64,000 bases of DNA from Halobacteriovorax sp. Lineage in GTDB: Bacteria > Bdellovibrionota > Bacteriovoracia > Bacteriovoracales > Bacteriovoracaceae. The stretch is taken from the NCBI GenBank assembly GCA_002720865.1, contig PBIO01000031.1:62001-126000 (forward strand). Direction: 5' to 3'. A model generated the notes under the pieces. That model did not search any database, was not told the origin of the DNA, and worked only from the letters and a program-made list of their open reading frames with translations. Below, in pieces: positions 26,889 through 47,450 of the stretch (the stretch's first letter is position 1; each line of letters begins with the position of its first letter). Made by a program: the position numbers and the translations under genes.

Positions 26889-27782
26889 CTATTTGTCTTT
26901 TCTAAGAGAAGTGGGGGTTTTCTTTGAAGGAGTAGTGTCGATATTTTTGTTCACTACACCACGGACTGAATCACCAACGGCTTTTCCAGCGGTGGCGGAT
27001 TCTCCAAAGGCCGTTTTTTTGACTTTTTGTAGGTACTCTTCTTCGACTTTTCTAAATTCTTTTTTGAAATTACGGTCATAAAATTCACATCGAGGTGATC
27101 TAGATTGGGGTTCCATAAGATAGGGCTTATCATCGATCCAAACTGAAATCATGGCATGCCCTGCACCTTTCATATGCTCTTTCTTTTCTTCGTCGCGATA
27201 GTATTGATCACCCCAATCGGTTTGAACTGTGAGGCCAAAATATTCCATAATATCGTTCGCAAGATTGGCAAAAGACTTACAGTCTCCACCGCCAGATTCA
27301 AGTGCACCACGGCAAGTTTGATAATTTCCCGCAACAGTTCTTCTATAACTAATCAACCTTGAACTGATACAAGTGGCAAGGCAAGCTTGTTGGCAGGTGC
27401 TTAAACTCTCATTAGTAATTTTTGCTTTCGAAAACTTTAAAATTCGATCGTAGTCTTGATTGATTTTGGCATTTTGAAAGTCTTTTTCACTACCGCCCCC
27501 ATAGAAAGCGGCAATATTATTAAATCCAGTCTTTATAACTCTACCCGTACTATTTACTCCATGGTTTACACCTTCCACGAGTTCACTGGTGCTAGAAACA
27601 TCAAGGGGAGTATTGTTTTTATAATACTTACAGCGCTTCTTATTAAATTTTTTGAGAATGCAGTTATTCACAATATCCGCGTACTTCTTAGTCCATTTTT
27701 TTTCTACTATCTTTGGATCTACTTCTTCGGCTAAGAGTGCATTAAGACTAAAAATCAATTTGATGATTAAAACTAATTTCAT
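26889..27782 (-). CDS. Secreted transglutaminase-like cysteine protein
   Basis: A 297-residue exported protein of the transglutaminase/papain-like fold. Signal peptide to about residue 19 (LNALLAEE). The triad candidates are C168 in GGGDCKSFANLANDIM, H209 in GAGHAMISVW and E224 in PYLMEPQ (Asp in most relatives). Several extra cysteines (CQQACLATC) suggest disulfides. The last 40 residues are basic and low-complexity. It may be a protease, a transglutaminase or an amidase. It is head to head with a protein-glutaminase-like gene of the same general fold. Confidence 0.65.
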   Translation of the reverse strand: MKLVLIIKLIFSLNALLAEEVDPKIVEKKWTKKYADIVNNCILKKFNKKRCKYYKNNTPLDVSSTSELVEGVNHGVNSTGRVIKTGFNNIAAFYGGGSEKDFQNAKINQDYDRILKFSKAKITNESLSTCQQACLATCISSRLISYRRTVAGNYQTCRGALESGGGDCKSFANLANDIMEYFGLTVQTDWGDQYYRDEEKKEHMKGAGHAMISVWIDDKPYLMEPQSRSPRCEFYDRNFKKEFRKVEEEYLQKVKKTAFGESATAGKAVGDSVRGVVNKNIDTTPSKKTPTSLRKDK

Positions 27783-27825: not shown

Positions 27826-27938
27826 CTTATCGGCAATATTAAACTCTTGCGAAATTTCAGGTACTCACGAATATCATATCCTTTGATATCGGTCACTTAG
27901 CTCCTTTAATATAGGGGGAAAAAGCCGATAAGGAGCTA
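27826..27938 (+). promoter_or_regulatory. Alternative hairpins covering the ribosome binding site of 27938
   Basis: TAGCTCCTT (27898-27906) is perfectly complementary to AAGGAGCTA (27930-27938), which contains the Shine-Dalgarno and the first base of the start codon. A second segment CTTATCGGC (27826-27834) is complementary to GCCGATAAG (27924-27932), partly overlapping the same site. The two pairings exclude each other. This resembles a riboswitch or attenuator layout; no known class is recognised. The second pairing exists only if the transcript starts upstream of 27826. Confidence 0.55.
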
Positions 27939-28765
27939 TGAAAGTCTTTGTTTTCCTTATAGGGATCACTCTATTTTCAAATGCCTATGCAAGCGCTGAA
28001 CTTGAAGAGGCGATTAAGGGATTTAATAAGGTTGCCTCGAGTGCGACAGAGCCGAAGTTTCCCTGTCAGGAAAGAAGAGTGCCGCCGAAGCAGGCCCGCT
28101 ATGAGGAAGGGGTCGATGCTTCAAAACTTCATGAGAAAGTTGATCTTGGTTTTAAAAAAGAATTTGAAACTTCGGAGTATCGTGGGGACTCGCTTTCGGT
28201 GCTAAGTCCTGAAGAGGCAGAAAAACTTTTTAAGGCCTTTTATGAAGTTGATTATATGCAGTTTGATTATTTACATGCAGGCTGCGAAATTCGTGCCCAT
28301 GAGTACGCCTTGATTGCGAAGGCCAATGGAATAAAAATGGGAAAGGCCATGACCATGTACGGGACCGAAATAGATAGAGGCGGACTATACCCAAAGGAAT
28401 GGAAGGAAAAAGATAAAGCTGGTGAGAAAATTCCTGTTCCAGACGGTTTTATAGGATGGCGCTACCATGTGGCTCCCTATGTATTGGTCAAAGATGGAGA
28501 TAAGATCAAACCTTATGTCTTTGATATGGGAATAGCTAAAAAACCAAAGACACTTAAGCAGTGGAATAGTAGTTTAAAAAATATGGATGAAAAAGAAACA
28601 CGAACCTTTACTAAAGGGAGCGATTTTTTACACCCCTATGATGAATCCCCTCGGGAGCCTGGGAAAAGTTTTATTGGTACCGAACTTAATAAACAAAAGC
28701 TTATTAGAGAGATGGGGATTTATGAATTTGAATACTGGGATAGTAAGGGACTTCTTAGCTATTAA
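27938..28765 (+). CDS. Secreted protein-glutaminase-like deamidase
   Basis: A 275-residue exported protein: signal peptide to about residue 18 (FSNAYASA), pro-region, then the protein-glutaminase pattern, with C116 in HAGCEIRAHEY, H177 in GWRYHVAPYV and D196 in YVFDMGIAK, followed by KTLKQWNSSLK. The W-x-Y-H-V-A-P and V-x-D blocks match protein-glutaminases that deamidate Gln side chains. It may modify proteins outside the cell. Strongest alternative is another cysteine protease-fold enzyme. Ribosome binding site AAGGAG is present but predicted to be folded. Confidence 0.65.
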   Translation: MKVFVFLIGITLFSNAYASAELEEAIKGFNKVASSATEPKFPCQERRVPPKQARYEEGVDASKLHEKVDLGFKKEFETSEYRGDSLSVLSPEEAEKLFKAFYEVDYMQFDYLHAGCEIRAHEYALIAKANGIKMGKAMTMYGTEIDRGGLYPKEWKEKDKAGEKIPVPDGFIGWRYHVAPYVLVKDGDKIKPYVFDMGIAKKPKTLKQWNSSLKNMDEKETRTFTKGSDFLHPYDESPREPGKSFIGTELNKQKLIREMGIYEFEYWDSKGLLSY

Positions 28766-28780
28766 AAGAAAGAATAAAAA

Positions 28781-29701
28781 ATGATGAAAAAGATAGTAAC
28801 TAGTATTTTCTGGATTGTTAGTGTCGCCCTAGCCTTCTATATAGGGAAGAATTCTGTTGTTCCCTCTCAAGTCGTCGAAACCAAGGAAGTCATTAGGATT
28901 AAAGAGAAGCTGGTTAAAAGCACAGCGAGTGAAGGATCGTCTAATGTTGATGCTCCTAAGACAAGTGAGAAGGATAAAAAAGAGAATAAGAATGAAGACT
29001 CACAGGATTCTTATTATAAAAAAAGATATGATTTTTTAACAAAAGATGATGGCAGGAATGAAGCCATTATTGATTGCCGTGATGGGAAAGAGTATGCCTG
29101 TTGGAAACTTGAAGAGTACTATCGCTATACCGGGCAAAAGAATAAACTTCTTGATCAGATGAAGAGCAAATGTACTGGGGAAAAAGTTGAATCCTGTGTT
29201 TCACTTTTTTATATGATCGAAGGTAAGAAGGCCAAGAATCAGATCACATCGAAATTGAAAAAAAGCTGTAAGGCCAATAATGCAAAGGCCTGCGTGAGTT
29301 TAGGGAATATTGTTGAGTATGGAGATACTAAGATTGATAAAATGGCCTTTAAACTTAGGGAGAAGGGCTGTGAGCTTGATGTTAAAACTTGCTCAAGCCT
29401 AGCCTCAAGTCTTCATAGGGTTAATGACCCAAGAGCAGGGGAGTTTTATTTAAAGGCCTGTGAGGCCGGAGGTGAACGTTCCTGTATGATTGCTTCGAGG
29501 TATTTTTTTGAAACAGGTCAAAAGGAAGAAGGCGGCCAGGTTCTTCGCATGGGCTGCGATCAAAATCAAAATTACGAGTGTAGGCAGTACTATGAGTTTC
29601 TCTTGGCCAATAAAAGGCTTGATGAAGCGCAGGCCTTGAATAAAAGAGCCTGCGATAATGAAAAGACCAAGAGCTTCTTTTATTGCAAGCAGCCTAATTA
29701 A
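28781..29701 (+). CDS. Membrane-anchored cysteine-rich Sel1-like repeat protein
   Basis: A 306-residue protein with an N-terminal membrane segment (residues 5-22, VTSIFWIVSVALAFYIG), an acidic/lysine linker to about 85, then helical repeats of about 30 residues, each with a conserved Cys in a pattern like ACWKLEEYY, ACVSLGNIVEYG or SCMIASRYF. The pattern resembles Sel1/Hcp cysteine-rich repeats that form disulfide-stabilised helical scaffolds. It lies 15 bases after the protein-glutaminase-like gene, so is probably in its operon. It may hold or present a partner. Its end overlaps the convergent fusion gene by 8 bases. Confidence 0.65.
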   Translation: MMKKIVTSIFWIVSVALAFYIGKNSVVPSQVVETKEVIRIKEKLVKSTASEGSSNVDAPKTSEKDKKENKNEDSQDSYYKKRYDFLTKDDGRNEAIIDCRDGKEYACWKLEEYYRYTGQKNKLLDQMKSKCTGEKVESCVSLFYMIEGKKAKNQITSKLKKSCKANNAKACVSLGNIVEYGDTKIDKMAFKLREKGCELDVKTCSSLASSLHRVNDPRAGEFYLKACEAGGERSCMIASRYFFETGQKEEGGQVLRMGCDQNQNYECRQYYEFLLANKRLDEAQALNKRACDNEKTKSFFYCKQPN

Positions 29702-31925
29702 GAGCGTCTTTCATGGCCTTCATGGCAATATCTTCAAGCTTACCAAAATCCATTTTTGAGTGGGCTTCACAGATAAACCAAGGCTCTCTTGAGTCTGGTT
29801 CAAGCATGATTCCGCCTTTGATTAAGTTCCAAGCAAAACGCTCGTAGAGAGCGCTATCGGTGATTCGCCAGTCTCTATAGTTTGTAGGGACCGTGCTAGT
29901 AAAATGAATGCCAAACATGGAAGGGGGACCGGCAAAGCGATGCTCGATTCCATGACTTGTAAAAACTCTTCCGAGAATTTCTTTTATCTTTTCTCCCGTT
30001 TGATTAACGGTTTCAAGGGCCTTAGTTTGGGACAGGATCTCAAGGGTTTTATGAGCGGCAGAAAGTCCAATTAGGTTTGCTGTATATGTTCCCCCATGGA
30101 CTACGCCTCCTTGATTTGAGCCGACCACATCCATGACTTCTTTTTTTCCACCAAAAGCGGCGACCGGGTAGCCATTACCCATGGCCTTAGCATAGGTGGT
30201 AAGATCTGCTTTTATATTATAAAGCTCTCCAGCTCCACCTTTGGCCACGCGAAAGCCAGTCTTAACTTCATCCATGATTAGCATTGTGCCATTTTCTGTA
30301 CAAAGTTTTCTAAGTTCGTTAAGCCATTCCTTAGTTGAAGAAATACTTCCGCAGTTTCCAATAATGGGCTCAAGTATGATGCAGGCAAGTTGGTCTGATC
30401 TTTTCTTAAAAAGCTCTCTTAAACCTTCATGATCATTTAGTTGAATCAAGTCGACTAAGTTTCTCGTGGAGTCAGGGATTCCTCCTCCAAAAGGAATAAC
30501 CTTAGGTGGATTTGATCCTTTTGGATCCCAGTCCTCTACACTTGCTTTCCACATCACTTCATCAAAGAGGCCATGAAAGCCGCCTTCAACAATGGCGATA
30601 CGGTCTCGATTGGTATAACCACGGGCCGTTCTAATAGCGCCGATTACGGCCTCGGTACCAGAGTTGGCAAAACGCATCTTTTCTATATTTGGGCAGAGCT
30701 CTTTAATTTGTTTTACAACTTTTGTATCAAGGGCGGTAGAAAAACCCGTAAGAGTTCCCCCACTTGAAATTTGATTGATGACGGCCTGATCAACTCTTTC
30801 GTCTGCATAACCTAGGATAATAGGTCCATAGCCAAGCCTAAAGTCTATAAACTCTTTGTTATTTTCATCGGTGATGGTAAAGCCTTTTGATTTTTTTACG
30901 AAGACCGTATTTTCATCTCCCCAGTAGCGATAATTTTCACCGACTCCCTGAGGCATATGCTCATGGGCTTCTTTCATAAGCTCAGCCCGGGAAGGGGAGG
31001 ATATAATTTTATTTTCCGTTTTTGTTGGTCTTAATAAAATGTCCATTTCCTCTTCAAGAAGTTTTACTACTGATAGCTCTGGAGCATGGTCTCCATATTT
31101 CTTCTTGGCCTCTTCAAATAGTTCATAGGCCTTTTTTCCCATCTTTAAATCAAATCCTTGGCTTTTTGAAATCTCAGAAACAAGTCTTAAGTCTTTGCAG
31201 CAAAGCTCCAGTGAAAAACTTGGGTCGTAGTGTCCTGCAAAGATGGAAGGAATATCGTGCTCAGCTACCCAGCTATTTCCCGCACTCTTTTTTAGGGCCT
31301 CGGTCACAGTTTCAAGTGGAATACCAGCTTTTGCCCCAAGCATAAGCCCTTCACCAATGGCGGCAGCGTTCACAAACCATAAAAGATTTGTAATGAGTTT
31401 TGTAGTGGCCCCATTACCTGGTTTTCCCACATAGAAAAGATCACTACCTAAAATATTAAAAATATCTTTAGAGCTTTCAAAAACATCTTCCTCTCCGCCA
31501 ATAAAAAAGGCTAGGGTTCCAAGTTTTGCTCCGTCTACCGCGTTAGTGATGGGAGCCTCTAAATAATGAATCGATTTCTCTTTTGCTTCTTTTTCTATTT
31601 CTTGGGCCAGCTCAACTGAGCTGGTGGAGGTGTCAATAAGAGTTGAATATTTTTGAGCAAAATTTAAAACACCATTTTCTCCTAGGATCACTTCTCGTAC
31701 TTGTGCCGGACCAGGGAGTGAAGTCATGATTAAGTCAGCATCTTTAACAGATTCTTCTAAATCACTAGCGAATTTTGCTCCACTATCAATTAAGTTTTGC
31801 GCCTTAGCCTTATCAAGATCGTAAACCGTTACCGAGTAACCAGAGTTGATTAAATTATAGGCCATGGGATTACCCATATTGCCAACGCCAATAAAAGTGA
31901 TTTTTGTATTTTGATTATTTTTCAT
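29694..31925 (-). CDS. Beta-hydroxyacid dehydrogenase fused to class III aminotransferase
   Basis: A 743-residue fusion. Residues 1-300 are an NAD(P)-dependent beta-hydroxyacid (3-hydroxyisobutyrate-type) dehydrogenase: FIGVGNMGNPMAYNL binds the cofactor and K176 in GNGATTKLITN is the catalytic lysine. Residues 305-743 are a PLP class III aminotransferase close to glutamate-1-semialdehyde aminomutases: D552 in MDEVKTGFR and K580 in TYAKAMGNGYP. The two domains could convert an omega-amino acid to a semialdehyde and then to a hydroxyacid. Substrate unknown. A methyltransferase gene lies 2 bases upstream. Confidence 0.87.
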   Translation of the reverse strand: MKNNQNTKITFIGVGNMGNPMAYNLINSGYSVTVYDLDKAKAQNLIDSGAKFASDLEESVKDADLIMTSLPGPAQVREVILGENGVLNFAQKYSTLIDTSTSSVELAQEIEKEAKEKSIHYLEAPITNAVDGAKLGTLAFFIGGEEDVFESSKDIFNILGSDLFYVGKPGNGATTKLITNLLWFVNAAAIGEGLMLGAKAGIPLETVTEALKKSAGNSWVAEHDIPSIFAGHYDPSFSLELCCKDLRLVSEISKSQGFDLKMGKKAYELFEEAKKKYGDHAPELSVVKLLEEEMDILLRPTKTENKIISSPSRAELMKEAHEHMPQGVGENYRYWGDENTVFVKKSKGFTITDENNKEFIDFRLGYGPIILGYADERVDQAVINQISSGGTLTGFSTALDTKVVKQIKELCPNIEKMRFANSGTEAVIGAIRTARGYTNRDRIAIVEGGFHGLFDEVMWKASVEDWDPKGSNPPKVIPFGGGIPDSTRNLVDLIQLNDHEGLRELFKKRSDQLACIILEPIIGNCGSISSTKEWLNELRKLCTENGTMLIMDEVKTGFRVAKGGAGELYNIKADLTTYAKAMGNGYPVAAFGGKKEVMDVVGSNQGGVVHGGTYTANLIGLSAAHKTLEILSQTKALETVNQTGEKIKEILGRVFTSHGIEHRFAGPPSMFGIHFTSTVPTNYRDWRITDSALYERFAWNLIKGGIMLEPDSREPWFICEAHSKMDFGKLEDIAMKAMKDALN

Positions 31926-31927
31926 AA

Positions 31928-32674
31928 TTAATTTTTTTGGTAAACGAAAAAGTTTCTAGAAGGGCATAGACCAAGAGGTTTGCAGTCAAGTTCTTTGAAG
32001 AAATCATGAACCTCAGATTCAGGGAGAACAAGATAGCGATAAAACTGTTCAGCAATTACACCTTGAGTGCTGGTAAAAGAGTAATGCTTAGTAAATCCGT
32101 TATCTTCTTTAAAGATCTCCTGCGAGTAAGTTAACTCATTAGAAAGCTCTTTAGAGTAATTGGTGTGGGGTGCCTGAAGGGCCAGGGCCAGAACACCACC
32201 TTTTTCTAAATGCTCGGCCACATTTTTTAAGCCTTGCTTGGATGTTTCAAGATCATCAATATGACTACAGAACTCTAGCTCTTTGTCAGGACCATTATCG
32301 ATAAAGTACCAACAGCCACCAACTGAAAAGGCCGCTTCAAACCTAGTATCAATAGAGAGTTTAGTTATATCTTGAAGTTCATAAGCAATGCGATCCCCAA
32401 GTTTTTCTTTGGCCTGTGAAATCATGGCCGGAGTATTATCAACCCCTGTAATTTTAAAATCTGGATTGGCCTTTAATAGATTATCGGCCACAAGTCCTGT
32501 ACCAACCCCTAGCTCCATTAACTTTCGTCTTTCCCCAATAATGGCACAAAGATTTTTTGAAATTTCATCATAATCATAATAACCGTCAGTCATGAGAGTA
32601 TCGTAATGTTCAGCGATTCCTTCATAGGTATTAAGGTCTTGTTCTTCGATTTTCTTCTTATCTGATTCAGTCAA
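31928..32674 (-). CDS. Class I SAM-dependent methyltransferase
   Basis: A 248-residue methyltransferase with the Rossmann SAM motif I (KLMELGVGTGLVADNL), acidic end of strand 2 (ITGVDNTPAMISQAKEKL) and motif IV-like segment (EAAFSVGGCWYF). No substrate domain identified. It lies 2 bases ahead of the dehydrogenase-aminotransferase fusion, so the pair form an operon; its product could be N- or O-methylated metabolite of the same pathway. Confidence 0.87.
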   Translation of the reverse strand: MTESDKKKIEEQDLNTYEGIAEHYDTLMTDGYYDYDEISKNLCAIIGERRKLMELGVGTGLVADNLLKANPDFKITGVDNTPAMISQAKEKLGDRIAYELQDITKLSIDTRFEAAFSVGGCWYFIDNGPDKELEFCSHIDDLETSKQGLKNVAEHLEKGGVLALALQAPHTNYSKELSNELTYSQEIFKEDNGFTKHYSFTSTQGVIAEQFYRYLVLPESEVHDFFKELDCKPLGLCPSRNFFVYQKN

Positions 32675-32839
32675 ATCGTCCTCCTGACGAATGGGGGTTA
32701 GGGGATGAATTATAGGAGAACTTTATTCATAGATAAAGAAGCCCTGTGCCCCTTTTTTCATCTACTTAGCATGGTATTTTCCTAGGATATTTAGCCACTT
32801 AGAACTAAAGTTGAGGGTTTTAGTCGCCGATAAGATGGG

Positions 32840-35809
32840 GTGAGAATCCTTCTAGTTTTAGCTTTATTATTAAGCTCCTGTTCATCGGTGAATAGGTCCT
32901 TTGATCGTATGCCAGCTTCAGTTATTAGCTGTCATGATTTGGCCTTGAACCTTCTTGAGAATCCTAGGGCCGCAGGAGATCTTGATGAGCTGACGGACGC
33001 GGTCTTTCGCTTAAAAATAGATGCCCCAGAATTAGAGGGTCTTGAAGAGCTTTTACGTGGCTCACCGCTATTTAATAAACTTTCCCTTGGTGATCAGGCC
33101 TTTAATAAAGCTATTCGTTTGCTTAAAAGTGAGGCCCCTGAAGCGAGTGTCAATAAAGACCTTAAAAAGTTAATTGCAAATGAGGCAAAGAGCTATTTAA
33201 GCAAAGAGAACTCAAGCTTTAAGGAGTTAAGGCTAGTCCTTACGATTCTTCCTTCACTTAAATTAGAATCATCCGCCTATAAACGTCTTTTAAAAAACTC
33301 AAATGAACTTAAGATTCTAGGGCTAACAGATGATGAAAGTATAAAAGGATTGGTGGACTTAATTTCATCTAATAATACCAGGGATGAAATCTATAAAAGA
33401 TTTCTCTTTTCAAGAATCTCAAATATGGGAAGCTCCGCGGATGATGATTTTTATACTTTTCCAGTCCTGGTGCAAAACATAAAAAGAGTGACCATGACGG
33501 CCGAGGAGATGGACTTTTACTTTAAAGACGCAGATCTAGGACGAGTTTTAGGAATCAGAAAGTCAGCATTAAAAAGGGTGGTAAAAGATTTTCGGGAAGG
33601 AACTGATCTTGACGCTTTAATAAAAAAACATGTACCGGATCACTCTACAATTGGAATTGAATTTGAAGGCTCTATTCCCGATGATGTTAGCTATTTTGAA
33701 GTGGCCAAGTCTATGAGAGGGATTATCTCGGAGCTTTATCCGGGTAAAGAAATTAGCATCACTGGCAAGTCAGGAAGTAGCAAAATTAGCTTTGAAAAAG
33801 ATGGACTTGAATATATCTATGTTGTGAAAAGTGACGCCTCTTTAAAGTTTGAAGCCGGTAAAAATGGAGTGGAGATCGTCTCCCCTATAATTCGTGACGG
33901 TAAAGATCTGGCCAATCATATTGAGCTCTTATCAAGGCTAAAAAAGCTTGGGGTCGATCAAAGACCTGACCAGGCCGGAATTCATATTCACTATGGAATT
34001 GATACAAGAAGCGTAACTCATGAGCAGCTTCTTGAGTTATTCCAGGCCTTTCATAAAATGGAGGCCAACCTTAGAAAAGTCTTCCATGTAAATGAGGGAA
34101 GGGGATATTTAGGAAGACAAAACCTAGAACGGGCCATGACCAGTTTAAGTACTATTGCTCTTTCTAACCCCAATAGACCACTTTCTTCTAGAACGGGACG
34201 GAATGCCTTTAGCTCAAGTCGAGCTATTATAAGATTTATCAATAGCTACGGAACGTTAGAGTCTAGATACTTTAACTCCACCCTTGAACCAGAAATCTTA
34301 GAGCTTTATACGGACTTTACCATTCGCTTCCTAGAGGCCTGGAAAAGAGGTGATGCAAATGTTCTAGGGTATATTAAAAACACTTCAGAAGATGAGATTT
34401 CAATTCTTAAAATTGCAGAACTTTTAGATGCTAGGCTGGCCAAGGAGTCCGATAAGTTTGACTCTCTTTTAAATGATAATATGACCTTTGATGAACTAAA
34501 GCTTGCCCTTGAGGCCCCTCGAGAGAGACAAGTTCTAGAGTTAAGTGAATTAGATCAGGTTAAGAATAGCTATGAGCTCTCAGATCTTGCTTACCAACTC
34601 GAAAATATTTCTGAAGCTGAGTTTAAAGAAAGCTTTAAGAAAATAATTGATCATAAACTCTCTAGTGAATTCTCACTAACGGCCCTTGGGCGCTCTCTTT
34701 CTAATCCAAACTTAGATGAAGAGCTTGTTACTTTCTATTCAAGAGAGCTTTTAAAGAAATCACGAGGTGATGCTCTTGAAACGCTAATTCCTAGTCTTTA
34801 TAAAAAACTTGGTGGAGAAAAAACTCATAAGCTCCTTGAGGCTGAAATATTACCGGAAGCCACGGACTATCAGATAAGATCGCTCTTGTTAGGTATCTCA
34901 AAAAGAGAAGAGGATATCCCGGAACTTACAGAATTTATCACCAAACATTTTATCGATAAAGAGATTCCTGATGTGGCCATGGAGATCATTCCTAATATCT
35001 TATGGTCTCAAAAAGATATTTCTTCGGGAATGGATCTTTTTAAAAAAATAATAGCCCGAGATTTTGACTTTACTCTTAAAAAGAAAAAACTTCTTATGAA
35101 TTTTCTTTTTGAAAGAGGGGAGGACGAACTAATTGAAACAACATTAAAGAACTCCGCCTACAAAGAGGTCTATGGGAAGTTCTTAATGGAAAAGCTAAGT
35201 GAATCAACACTGCCTTATGATCCAAAGTACTTTAAATGGATAACCATATCCCAGTCTGTGGTCAAAAAAGAAGAGCAGATGCTTGCGGTAATGAAGGCCA
35301 TGCGCCGCTTTGATGAAGACCTACCAAAAGTAGAAGCGAGTAAGCTTTTAGGAAAAATGTTAGCAACCTATAAAAGCTATAATATAGCTAATAAAAAATA
35401 TGTCTTAGACTTTGCCACTTATCTTCGAGATACAAGTCTAAGTCCTTCCAATATTGATGAAATTTTTGACTATTTTATTTTTGTCAGTCGAAAGTCCTTT
35501 GAAGCGGAGTATATTGTCACCCTCATAGATCTTATGGGTAGAAATGGCGGGAGTGTACTTGATGATAAGGCCTTTGAACTTCTTTCAAGTTTTGATGATG
35601 TAAGTGTTTCAATTTTAGGCAAGAATGAAAACTTCCTTATGCTTTCAAACGGCCTAGAGACCTTAAAAAGTCGTTATTCAGATGCACTAGACCCTTCAGT
35701 CAAACAAAAGCTAGATGAAGTAATTCAAAGGGTAGAGGACGCTGCTGAGCAAGTCAGACTTAATCCAGAGCGCTTTCGTCAAAGCGATAATTCAGGAGAA
35801 GCCAGCTAA
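32840..35809 (+). CDS. Large lipoprotein with amidoligase-like domain
   Basis: A 989-residue protein that starts with a lipoprotein signal (lipobox LSSC, C14). Residues about 270-490 resemble the amidoligase family (Amidoligase_2, carboxylate-amine ligases): GIEFEG at about 272, KSDASLKF, GVEIVSPI, AGIHIHYG at about 380 and GTLESRYFNSTLEP at about 472. The rest is alpha-helical with no clear domain. Amidoligases need ATP, so an exported one is odd; either the domain has lost its activity, or the sequence is misread as a lipoprotein. The start is GTG 32840 with only a weak ribosome binding site; a stop codon lies three codons upstream. Confidence 0.6.
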   Translation: MRILLVLALLLSSCSSVNRSFDRMPASVISCHDLALNLLENPRAAGDLDELTDAVFRLKIDAPELEGLEELLRGSPLFNKLSLGDQAFNKAIRLLKSEAPEASVNKDLKKLIANEAKSYLSKENSSFKELRLVLTILPSLKLESSAYKRLLKNSNELKILGLTDDESIKGLVDLISSNNTRDEIYKRFLFSRISNMGSSADDDFYTFPVLVQNIKRVTMTAEEMDFYFKDADLGRVLGIRKSALKRVVKDFREGTDLDALIKKHVPDHSTIGIEFEGSIPDDVSYFEVAKSMRGIISELYPGKEISITGKSGSSKISFEKDGLEYIYVVKSDASLKFEAGKNGVEIVSPIIRDGKDLANHIELLSRLKKLGVDQRPDQAGIHIHYGIDTRSVTHEQLLELFQAFHKMEANLRKVFHVNEGRGYLGRQNLERAMTSLSTIALSNPNRPLSSRTGRNAFSSSRAIIRFINSYGTLESRYFNSTLEPEILELYTDFTIRFLEAWKRGDANVLGYIKNTSEDEISILKIAELLDARLAKESDKFDSLLNDNMTFDELKLALEAPRERQVLELSELDQVKNSYELSDLAYQLENISEAEFKESFKKIIDHKLSSEFSLTALGRSLSNPNLDEELVTFYSRELLKKSRGDALETLIPSLYKKLGGEKTHKLLEAEILPEATDYQIRSLLLGISKREEDIPELTEFITKHFIDKEIPDVAMEIIPNILWSQKDISSGMDLFKKIIARDFDFTLKKKKLLMNFLFERGEDELIETTLKNSAYKEVYGKFLMEKLSESTLPYDPKYFKWITISQSVVKKEEQMLAVMKAMRRFDEDLPKVEASKLLGKMLATYKSYNIANKKYVLDFATYLRDTSLSPSNIDEIFDYFIFVSRKSFEAEYIVTLIDLMGRNGGSVLDDKAFELLSSFDDVSVSILGKNENFLMLSNGLETLKSRYSDALDPSVKQKLDEVIQRVEDAAEQVRLNPERFRQSDNSGEAS

Positions 35810-35950: not shown

Positions 35951-36370
35951 ATGTATTTTACTGAAAATAGAGTAAATATCGGCGTAATAGAAGATGATTA
36001 TGATGTAATTCACTATATTATCAATGAGCTAGATAAGAACTATAACCCATTCATTTTTAGTTGGTCTGAGTACGACGATGATGACTACGGAAGCTTTCGA
36101 AAATACATAGAAAGCTCTAAAATTGATCTCTTTTTAATTGATGTTAATTTGCCCGGTGTCTCTGGGTTTGAAGTGGCCAATAACTTATATAAGGCCAGAG
36201 GTGAAAAAGTCCCTATTATCTACATGTCGGTCGATCATACTTATAAGGACGTAATGACTAAGAATTATCCCAATTTATTTCTTAATAAACCTTTAAATTC
36301 TGAGGACTTAAACGTCGCGGTGGACTTTATGATAGAATTTGCTCAAGGAAAAGATAGAGTAGCGATTTAG
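35951..36370 (+). CDS. Stand-alone receiver domain protein
   Basis: A 139-residue single receiver: IGVIEDDYDVIH acidic pair, phospho-acceptor in DLFLIDVNLPGVSG, and FLNKPLNSED with the conserved Lys. An unusually acidic insertion (SEYDDDDYGS) follows strand 2. No output domain, so it would act by protein binding or phosphotransfer. It lies 26 bases before the hybrid kinase and has a GAGG ribosome binding site. Confidence 0.85.
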   Translation: MYFTENRVNIGVIEDDYDVIHYIINELDKNYNPFIFSWSEYDDDDYGSFRKYIESSKIDLFLIDVNLPGVSGFEVANNLYKARGEKVPIIYMSVDHTYKDVMTKNYPNLFLNKPLNSEDLNVAVDFMIEFAQGKDRVAI

Positions 36371-46626: not shown

Positions 46627-46784
46627 GGGGAACCTCGATAAAACGTACAACTTGATAAACTCACCTAACCAGAAAAATGGATTTGGATCAAGAGGGTCTA
46701 TAAATATTCCTTATGTCAAAGATAGGTATAAGTGATTTTTGTTATTTCTGGTTTCCTGCTAAGTTAAGGCAACTGGAGATAAAT

Positions 46785-47450
46785 ATGAAAGATGAAAAAC
46801 TTAATAGAAGAAAGCTACTTGGATCAACCTTTGCTCTTGGAGCAGGCATTGCCATGGCCGGAGTTGCTAGGGCCGATGAAACTTTAAAGGCCTGCGGTTT
46901 AACCCCCGCTCAAACAGAAGGTCCTTTTTATCCAATTCAAGATCAGCTAGATAAAAATACGGATTTAACTTTCGTTGATGGTAGAGGCAAAAAGGCCGTA
47001 GGGGAAGTTGTCTTTCTTAAAGGTGTTGTTCAAGATGAGTTTTGTCGTCCAGTAAAAGGGGCCCTAGTTGAAATTTGGCAGGCCTGCCATACTGGTAAGT
47101 ATAATCATCCAAGTGATCCAAATCCGGCCAAACTTGATCCTAACTTTCAGTACTGGGGACAGGCCATCACTAATGAAAAAGGTGAGTATCATTTTAAAAC
47201 GATTATTCCCGGGGCCTATCCGGCCACAAGCACTTGGATGAGACCGCCCCATATTCATTTTAAGGTTAATCTTAGAGGATTTAATGAGCTTACGAGTCAG
47301 CTCTACTTTAAAGGAAACAAATTTAATAATGGAGATAGAATTCTTAGAAGCTTAAGCCGTGAGGAGCGAGAGCGAGTCATTGTGGATTTTGTTACTAAGG
47401 CGGATGGTAGAAAAGAGGGAATCTTTAATATTTCTATTAAGTCTATTTAA
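46785..47450 (+). CDS. Tat-exported intradiol ring-cleavage dioxygenase-like protein
   Basis: A 221-residue protein: twin-arginine signal (KLNRRKLLGSTFALGAG), then an intradiol dioxygenase domain like the beta subunit of protocatechuate 3,4-dioxygenase. The Fe(III) ligands are Y106 (GKYNHP), Y145 (GAYPATS), H156 and H158 (RPPHIHF), with spacings exactly like PcaH Y408/Y447/H460/H462. It should cleave catechol-type rings, or act on another aromatic compound in the periplasm; no partner subunit gene is next to it. Start chosen at ATG 46785 to include the twin-arginine motif; CTGGAG precedes it. Confidence 0.9.
   Translation: MKDEKLNRRKLLGSTFALGAGIAMAGVARADETLKACGLTPAQTEGPFYPIQDQLDKNTDLTFVDGRGKKAVGEVVFLKGVVQDEFCRPVKGALVEIWQACHTGKYNHPSDPNPAKLDPNFQYWGQAITNEKGEYHFKTIIPGAYPATSTWMRPPHIHFKVNLRGFNELTSQLYFKGNKFNNGDRILRSLSREERERVIVDFVTKADGRKEGIFNISIKSI

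Follow-up and report, generated by a model that had tools for sequence, protein, structure and literature searches.

The stretch of DNA analysed here, 64,000 nucleotides of a Halobacteriovorax sp. contig that we call the window, encodes a predicted lipoprotein of 989 residues carrying an amidoligase domain with an intact set of ligase-type motif residues, and sequence comparisons indicate that export of amidoligase domains is a pattern in the phylum and not a quirk of this one protein. From the intact site, its strong conservation and the repeated export, we propose, with about even confidence, that the protein is an envelope-anchored, nucleotide-dependent amide-bond enzyme working outside the cytoplasm. 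Because ATP is found in the cytoplasm, ligases that use it to make peptide bonds are assumed to work there too. Signal-bearing relatives with intact sites, found in more than one branch and partly with exported partners, would either break this rule or point to a nucleotide-sparing chemistry.

The gene is a single open frame of 989 codons on the forward strand (32840-35809) with a GTG start, which we read as the only sensible one because the in-frame codons upstream end in a stop at 32831; the opposite strand of the same interval holds no coherent frame, with stops throughout in that register. It stands alone between its neighbours, a class-I methyltransferase gene upstream (31928-32674, reverse strand) that points away from it and a response-regulator gene downstream that begins at 35951, 141 bases beyond its end, and no promoter or terminator signals above the shuffled background were found at it. 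A nearby partner gene is typical of the Amidoligase_2 family, though not strictly defining. No GATase, ATP-grasp or cyclotransferase partner was present among the 18 Pfam-scanned neighbours (22146-47450), where class-I GATase was sought, and genome-wide counts of R2K_3 and BPL_N were both zero in the window genome (4.9 Mb, 33 contigs); hence the window protein would work without R2K_3 or BPL_N partners. The features of the gene and its product are collected in Table 1.

Table 1. Features of the predicted exported-amidoligase gene and its product, in window coordinates.
Feature	Position	Strand	Basis
CDS, predicted exported amidoligase-domain lipoprotein, 989 aa	32840..35809	+	frame, Pfam
Signal peptide and lipobox, residues 1-14 (L-S-S-C, C14; serine at +2)	32840..32881	+	sequence; paralogue has the same plan
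N-terminal all-helical region, residues 48-264	32981..33631	+	model, low-to-middling confidence; no Pfam match
Amidoligase (GS/GCS-like) domain, residues 267-535 (about)	33638..34444	+	Pfam, alignments, model
G-I-E-F-E-G, residues 272-277 (E274, E276; putative metal-ligand position)	33653..33670	+	alignment; inferred by analogy with Dop Glu8/Glu10
D-A-S, residues 332-334 (D332)	33833..33841	+	alignment
E345 within G-V-E-I-V-S-P	33872..33874	+	alignment
H-I-H, residues 382-384	33983..33991	+	alignment
R421	34100..34102	+	alignment
T-L-E-S-R, residues 472-476 (E474, R476)	34253..34267	+	alignment
C-terminal helical solenoid, HEAT-like in the model, residues 568-983	34541..35788	+	model

Several other genes of the neighbourhood are of interest in their own right. 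A signal-bearing protein-glutaminase-like protein (27938-28765, forward strand; Pfam Gln_deamidase_2, E 2.8e-18) is encoded divergently from, and 155 bases apart from, a signal-bearing transglutaminase-like protein (26889-27782, reverse strand) that falls under the Pfam cut-off (E 3.8e-4), so that three signal-bearing amide-chemistry proteins, the amidoligase included, lie within 9 kb. One frame (29694-31925, reverse strand) joins a 3-hydroxyisobutyrate-dehydrogenase-like part to a class-III aminotransferase part, and the N-terminus of an intradiol-dioxygenase-like protein (46713-47450, forward strand) is, by our reading, twin-arginine-like.

The initial annotation had recognized an amidoligase-like domain from the motifs GIEFEG, AGIHIHYG and GTLESRYFNST, which are indeed present at residues 272-277, 379-386 and 471-481. 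Amidoligase_2 (PF12224) is the sole Pfam family matched in the protein (residues 328-496; 43.4 bits, where the curated cut-off is 22; E 4.9e-11). Profile-profile comparison gave the same answer: profile A1, built from 12 signal-bearing domains, matched alignment A3, which consists of the window domain and 40 phage proteins (thinned from 155 frames matching profile A1), with 99.9% probability (E 1.7e-34), the window domain being in both. With L107, a related exported domain, plain tblastn picks up phage records at values down to 1e-7, and several of the weaker ones (4e-4 and up) are annotated as 'amidoligase enzyme'. Other searches were empty or nearly so. The full protein had no match among PDB sequences, against which alignments A1 and A2 yielded chance-level rows only; tblastn of the window domain against plasmids and phages gave no match; the whole protein had no relatives among viral contigs; and a scan of genome contigs for relatives found none. 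Of two exported relatives searched against plasmids, one weakly matched an 'amidoligase family protein' of alphaproteobacterial origin and the other matched nothing.

An AlphaFold2 model of residues 240-540, computed from the alignment of the window domain with the 40 phage proteins (mean pLDDT 75.2, pTM 0.70), has a GS/GCS-like fold, which bears out the domain assignment. With Foldseek alone, none of the PDB entries reached E 0.001, and 16 viral rows of BFVD did, led by a phage amidoligase (E 6.6e-8). By VIA-align the model aligned best with Dop (Z 12.5, rmsd 3.8, 211 aligned residues; a second Dop row at Z 12.4), followed by plant glutamate-cysteine ligase (GCL, 11.9), PafA (11.7), YbdK (11.1) and many glutamine synthetases (about 9-10). 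The large-domain fold of Dop and PafA is thus present in the model, tied with GCL; as the three lie within one Z unit of each other, the fold gives no reaction direction.

Nine ligase-type motif residues are intact in the window domain (E274, E276, D332, E345, H382, H384, R421, E474 and R476). All but D332 are identical in each of the 11 other A1 domains, and position 332 is D in 9 of these, E in one and G in one. The phage proteins share the same set (G-x-E-x-E, D-x-S, E-x-x-x-P, H-x-H, R and T-x-E-x-R): the seven residues from D332 onward are identical in 40/40 phage rows, and E274 and E276 are kept in 39, the remaining row being gapped. The relatives compared are at 22-50% identity, and nearly all of the putative ATP-site residues, whose conservation had been in question, are kept in them. 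Dop coordinates its metals through Glu8, Glu10, Tyr92, Glu99, His155 and His241 (available text of PMC8599861). By analogy, from the common G-x-E-x-E strand, E274 and E276 would correspond to Glu8 and Glu10.

The protein begins V-R-I-L-L-V-L-A-L-L-L-S-S-C-S-S (translation of 32840-35809), a short signal with one arginine, nine hydrophobic residues and then S-S-C, with predicted cleavage before C14. By our home-made rule this is a bacterial-lipoprotein signal, that is, a hydrophobic segment ending in a lipobox cysteine. The lipobox noted at the outset is therefore present, and a paralogue of 1050 aa encoded elsewhere in the genome, with 40% identity over residues 2-804, has a lipobox of its own on the same plan. 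We read the N-termini of amidoligase frames at the window, the other 40 family loci and 41 further phylum loci, leaving out one G214 match and dropping G122, whose frame is open at its 5' end; export was called by the home-made rule. Among the non-canonical frames, the window protein included, 51/67 scored as exported and soluble, 2 had an extra hydrophobic stretch and 14 scored as lacking a signal, whereas none of the 11 canonical frames (310-365 aa) scored as exported (Fisher P 1.7e-6). Neighbouring non-overlapping ORFs of at least 200 aa scored as exported in 204/484 cases, which means that the rule is lax and that the lineage exports much; the amidoligases still stand out (76% vs 42%, P 1.2e-7). 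One of three helicase fusions scored as exported, by our reading an internal false call. Several of the 14 misses, G064b, G343, G214b and G161 among them, seem by eye to bear signals; G171 does not. Nine of the 12 A1 domains pass the rule; G253 has a signal and another hydrophobic stretch, and G064b and G334a fail, G334a having been accepted by the first version of the rule. The signals of the relatives differ in sequence and are of both lipobox and plain types. Homologues bearing signals are thus on record, where their absence would have spoken against the proposed export. A short sequence, R-x-P-[SA]-S, follows the signal of the window protein (32900-32920), and recurs in several lipoprotein relatives and some neighbours at L046. 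It occurs in 11/288 N-terminally hydrophobic ORFs against 0.75 expected (window and 40 family loci, picked for amidoligases), but it was discarded as a general export tag, because none of 144 other such ORFs has it in 400 kb of the window genome that had not been picked for amidoligases.

The large helical flanks had been described as having no known relatives, which holds for Pfam and for sequence; the C-terminal flank, however, is modelled as a HEAT-like helical solenoid. The full-length model (pLDDT 71.1, pTM 0.43) keeps the amidoligase core, with helices before it and the solenoid after it. The solenoid best matches the HEAT repeats of the PP2A scaffold (Z 11-13.7), but helical repeats can score this high by chance. 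In L129, a distant exported relative whose Amidoligase_2 score of 21.3 is slightly below the cut-off, Pfam HEAT_2 repeats stand behind the amidoligase-like domains. Flanking domains common to the window type and other exported types were considered and rejected (hhalign 0.9% and 0.6%).

A third, more distant member in the window genome (1006 aa; L039, 6680-9697) belongs to group B, 22 frames found by motif whose amidoligase-like domain departs from the usual motifs, with E-x-S in place of E-x-E and H-x-N in place of H-x-H; L039 itself reads G-I-E-Y-S and G-H-I-N. The C-terminal domain of group B is a real relative (hhalign 93.8% to A1, 97.0% to A3). L039 and the 21 similar frames are large exported proteins, some of about 2000 aa. 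To the eye, their N-terminus resembles a second amidoligase domain (G-A-E-K-E, E-F-R), but the hhalign probability was 0.1-6% and the idea was set aside. A shared gene pair was not claimed either, as the methyltransferase genes beside both window-genome copies have only a weak common stretch (E 0.017).

PF12224 is present in 31/129 family genomes, 68/368 phylum genomes and 0/14 control genomes. The window type is sparse: the query P0001 matched 3/39 genomes, its own included, and one other match was to the helical tail only. In an unrooted tree of 51 domains built by a quick method, with group B and tandem proteins left out and some row labels by our reading, the state has to switch at least twice between exported and cytosolic, and well-supported branches force two such switches. 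The exported branch with the window protein has 14 rows (support 97). The other exported branch, also of 14 rows, has support 94 and groups with the canonical GATase-linked branch as its sister (joint support 99); canonical cytosolic amidoligases in the phylum adjoin a class-I GATase (L040, L136). In this second exported branch the amidoligase protein continues into a region of the R2K ATP-grasp type, which scores above the curated cut-off in L044 and L111 and below it in L102, L106 and L109; the ATP-grasp signatures look kept in most, G-W-V-x-K-G being found in 8/8 and I-E-S-N-P in 6/8 (G343, one of the two without it, is cut by the contig end). An exported-looking gene for a BPL_N (GATase-like) protein follows the fusion in L102, L109 and L111, and a BPL_N match lies at the same place in G359. 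To judge by these sequences, other families of the phylum (L102, L109 and L111) apparently have an operon for an exported ligase. At L110 (6509-8937, reverse strand) an exported amidoligase gene overlaps another gene, whose exported product is weakly similar to ATP-grasp proteins (E 0.002-0.007). A helicase is fused to an amidoligase domain in L113, L120 and L045, apparently cytosolic proteins (helicase Pfam-checked in L120 only).

In the mechanism that we propose, the protein would be exported by Sec and lipidated at C14, the serine at +2 most likely directing it to the outer membrane. The GS/GCS-fold active site would be set between the N-terminal helices and the C-terminal HEAT-like solenoid, which probably binds a large substrate. 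Mg-nucleotide would be bound outside the cytoplasm and an amide (isopeptide) bond made or remodelled, the target being a carboxylate on a protein or an envelope polymer. The intact active site makes an enzyme most likely; against this, free ATP is scarce outside cells, and if the protein is a ligase its nucleotide must come from elsewhere. The unexpected energy source that the initial annotation had allowed for may be at work. The nucleotide could derive from lysed or invaded cells, if the lineage preys on bacteria, or the protein could bring it along in its active site, in the manner of Dop. An ATP transport system has reportedly been described in Bdellovibrio bacteriovorus 109J (the title of a 1986 paper by Ruby and McCabe), which suggests by analogy that outside ATP is real for such predators; that the window genome, in which no 16S sequence was found, is among them is our guess. 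Membership of a new cell-surface modification system, as originally envisaged, is possible, and no partner gene for one was found beside the window gene.

Of the readings that compete with an exported amide-bond enzyme of this kind, the reverse reaction, by a Dop-like deamidase or isopeptidase, is the most credible, though we think it distinctly less probable. The two top PDB rows of the model are Dop, and Dop splits ATP into ADP and a phosphate that it retains over many rounds (available text of PMC8599861), so that a similar retention would need no steady extracellular ATP supply; yet PafA and GCL score within one Z unit of it, and the closest sequence relatives with named records are phage amidoligase-like proteins, which could act in either direction. 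It is improbable that the domain has instead become a binder of a nucleotide, metabolite or peptide, without chemistry, in a protein serving as an envelope scaffold. Helical solenoids are typical scaffolds, and the motif decay of the L039 protein suggests that drift toward a binder does happen in the lineage; the window protein, on the other hand, keeps all nine residues, nearly all of which persist in its relatives. The earlier suggestion of a binder thus loses ground for the window protein while fitting the third copy in its genome.

The two remaining alternatives move the site of action. Delivery into the cells of prey or a host, for instance on outer-membrane vesicles, would place the enzyme where ATP is plentiful and account for intact ATP-type ligases in exported proteins, the ATP-grasp fusions included, and a role as effectors or conflict proteins has been proposed for the R2K families of ATP-grasp enzymes (available text of PMC4431377). 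We nevertheless hold it to be rather remote: the lipid anchor speaks against injection, no delivery signal was found, and the idea leans on the presumed lifestyle of the organism. That the signal is unused and the enzyme cytoplasmic, as was also raised initially, is very unlikely. The n-region consists of just one arginine and the start codon is GTG, but the paralogue and other relatives repeat the signal with different sequences and of both types, and signals recur in the separate exported branches and are missing from the canonical one linked to GATases.

Returning to the exported enzyme, a wider scenario can be sketched, tentatively, since we consider it more apt to be wrong than right: a probably predatory phylum would have moved amide-bond ligation outside, with at least two changes to exported forms, one branch adding an ATP-grasp ligase and a GATase-like partner, and would act on envelopes or prey with nucleotide that other cells release, the window protein being an outer-membrane member with a substrate-recognition solenoid. 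Distant relatives in the phylum repeat the pairing of an export signal with an amidoligase domain, so that the family may build or cut amide bonds outside the cytoplasm. If the lineage is predatory, these proteins could bear on how amide bonds are made extracytoplasmically in an invaded cell; the attachment of diaminopimelate to bdelloplast peptidoglycan, reportedly described in the literature of the 1980s, would be one such case. The wider exported set raises the interest beyond one odd protein, the kind of domain itself being already known (PF12224). Among titles and the openings of abstracts no published description of an exported amidoligase was found, and the main 2009 survey may mention such proteins.

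Among known systems, the window protein resembles Amidoligase_2, one of the COOH-NH2 ligase families reportedly treated by Iyer et al. in 2009, in profile score, in the motifs of the phage members and in its GS/GCS-like fold. It differs in its signal peptide and lipobox and in its length of 989 aa with helical regions on both sides; and whereas canonical members in the phylum stand beside a class-I GATase, and a gene for gamma-glutamyl cyclotransferase is found close to one phage relative, neither of these nor an ATP-grasp gene was found next to the window gene. Glutamate-cysteine ligase, YbdK and glutamine synthetase, which are cytoplasmic, have the same fold (Z 9-12) with no sequence match to the window domain. 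Dop and PafA, of the actinobacterial pathway that tags proteins for the proteasome (available text of PMC8599861), are the best fold matches and have G-x-E-x-E on the first strand, as Dop Glu8/Glu10 in the putative pairing, at 11-13% identity. The P. aeruginosa rlo operon is an envelope system in which secreted peptidases and a transglutaminase-like protein occur together with an ATP-grasp protein; the latter is predicted to be cytosolic, and the available text describes no Amidoligase_2 protein there (PMC12239564). In Mycobacterium tuberculosis the secreted glutamine synthetase GlnA1 is tied to cell-wall poly-glutamate/glutamine (available text of PMC10232911); unlike the window protein it is no dedicated lipoprotein but an ordinary cell enzyme also found outside, and it offers a loose precedent for a GS-fold enzyme beyond the cytoplasm.
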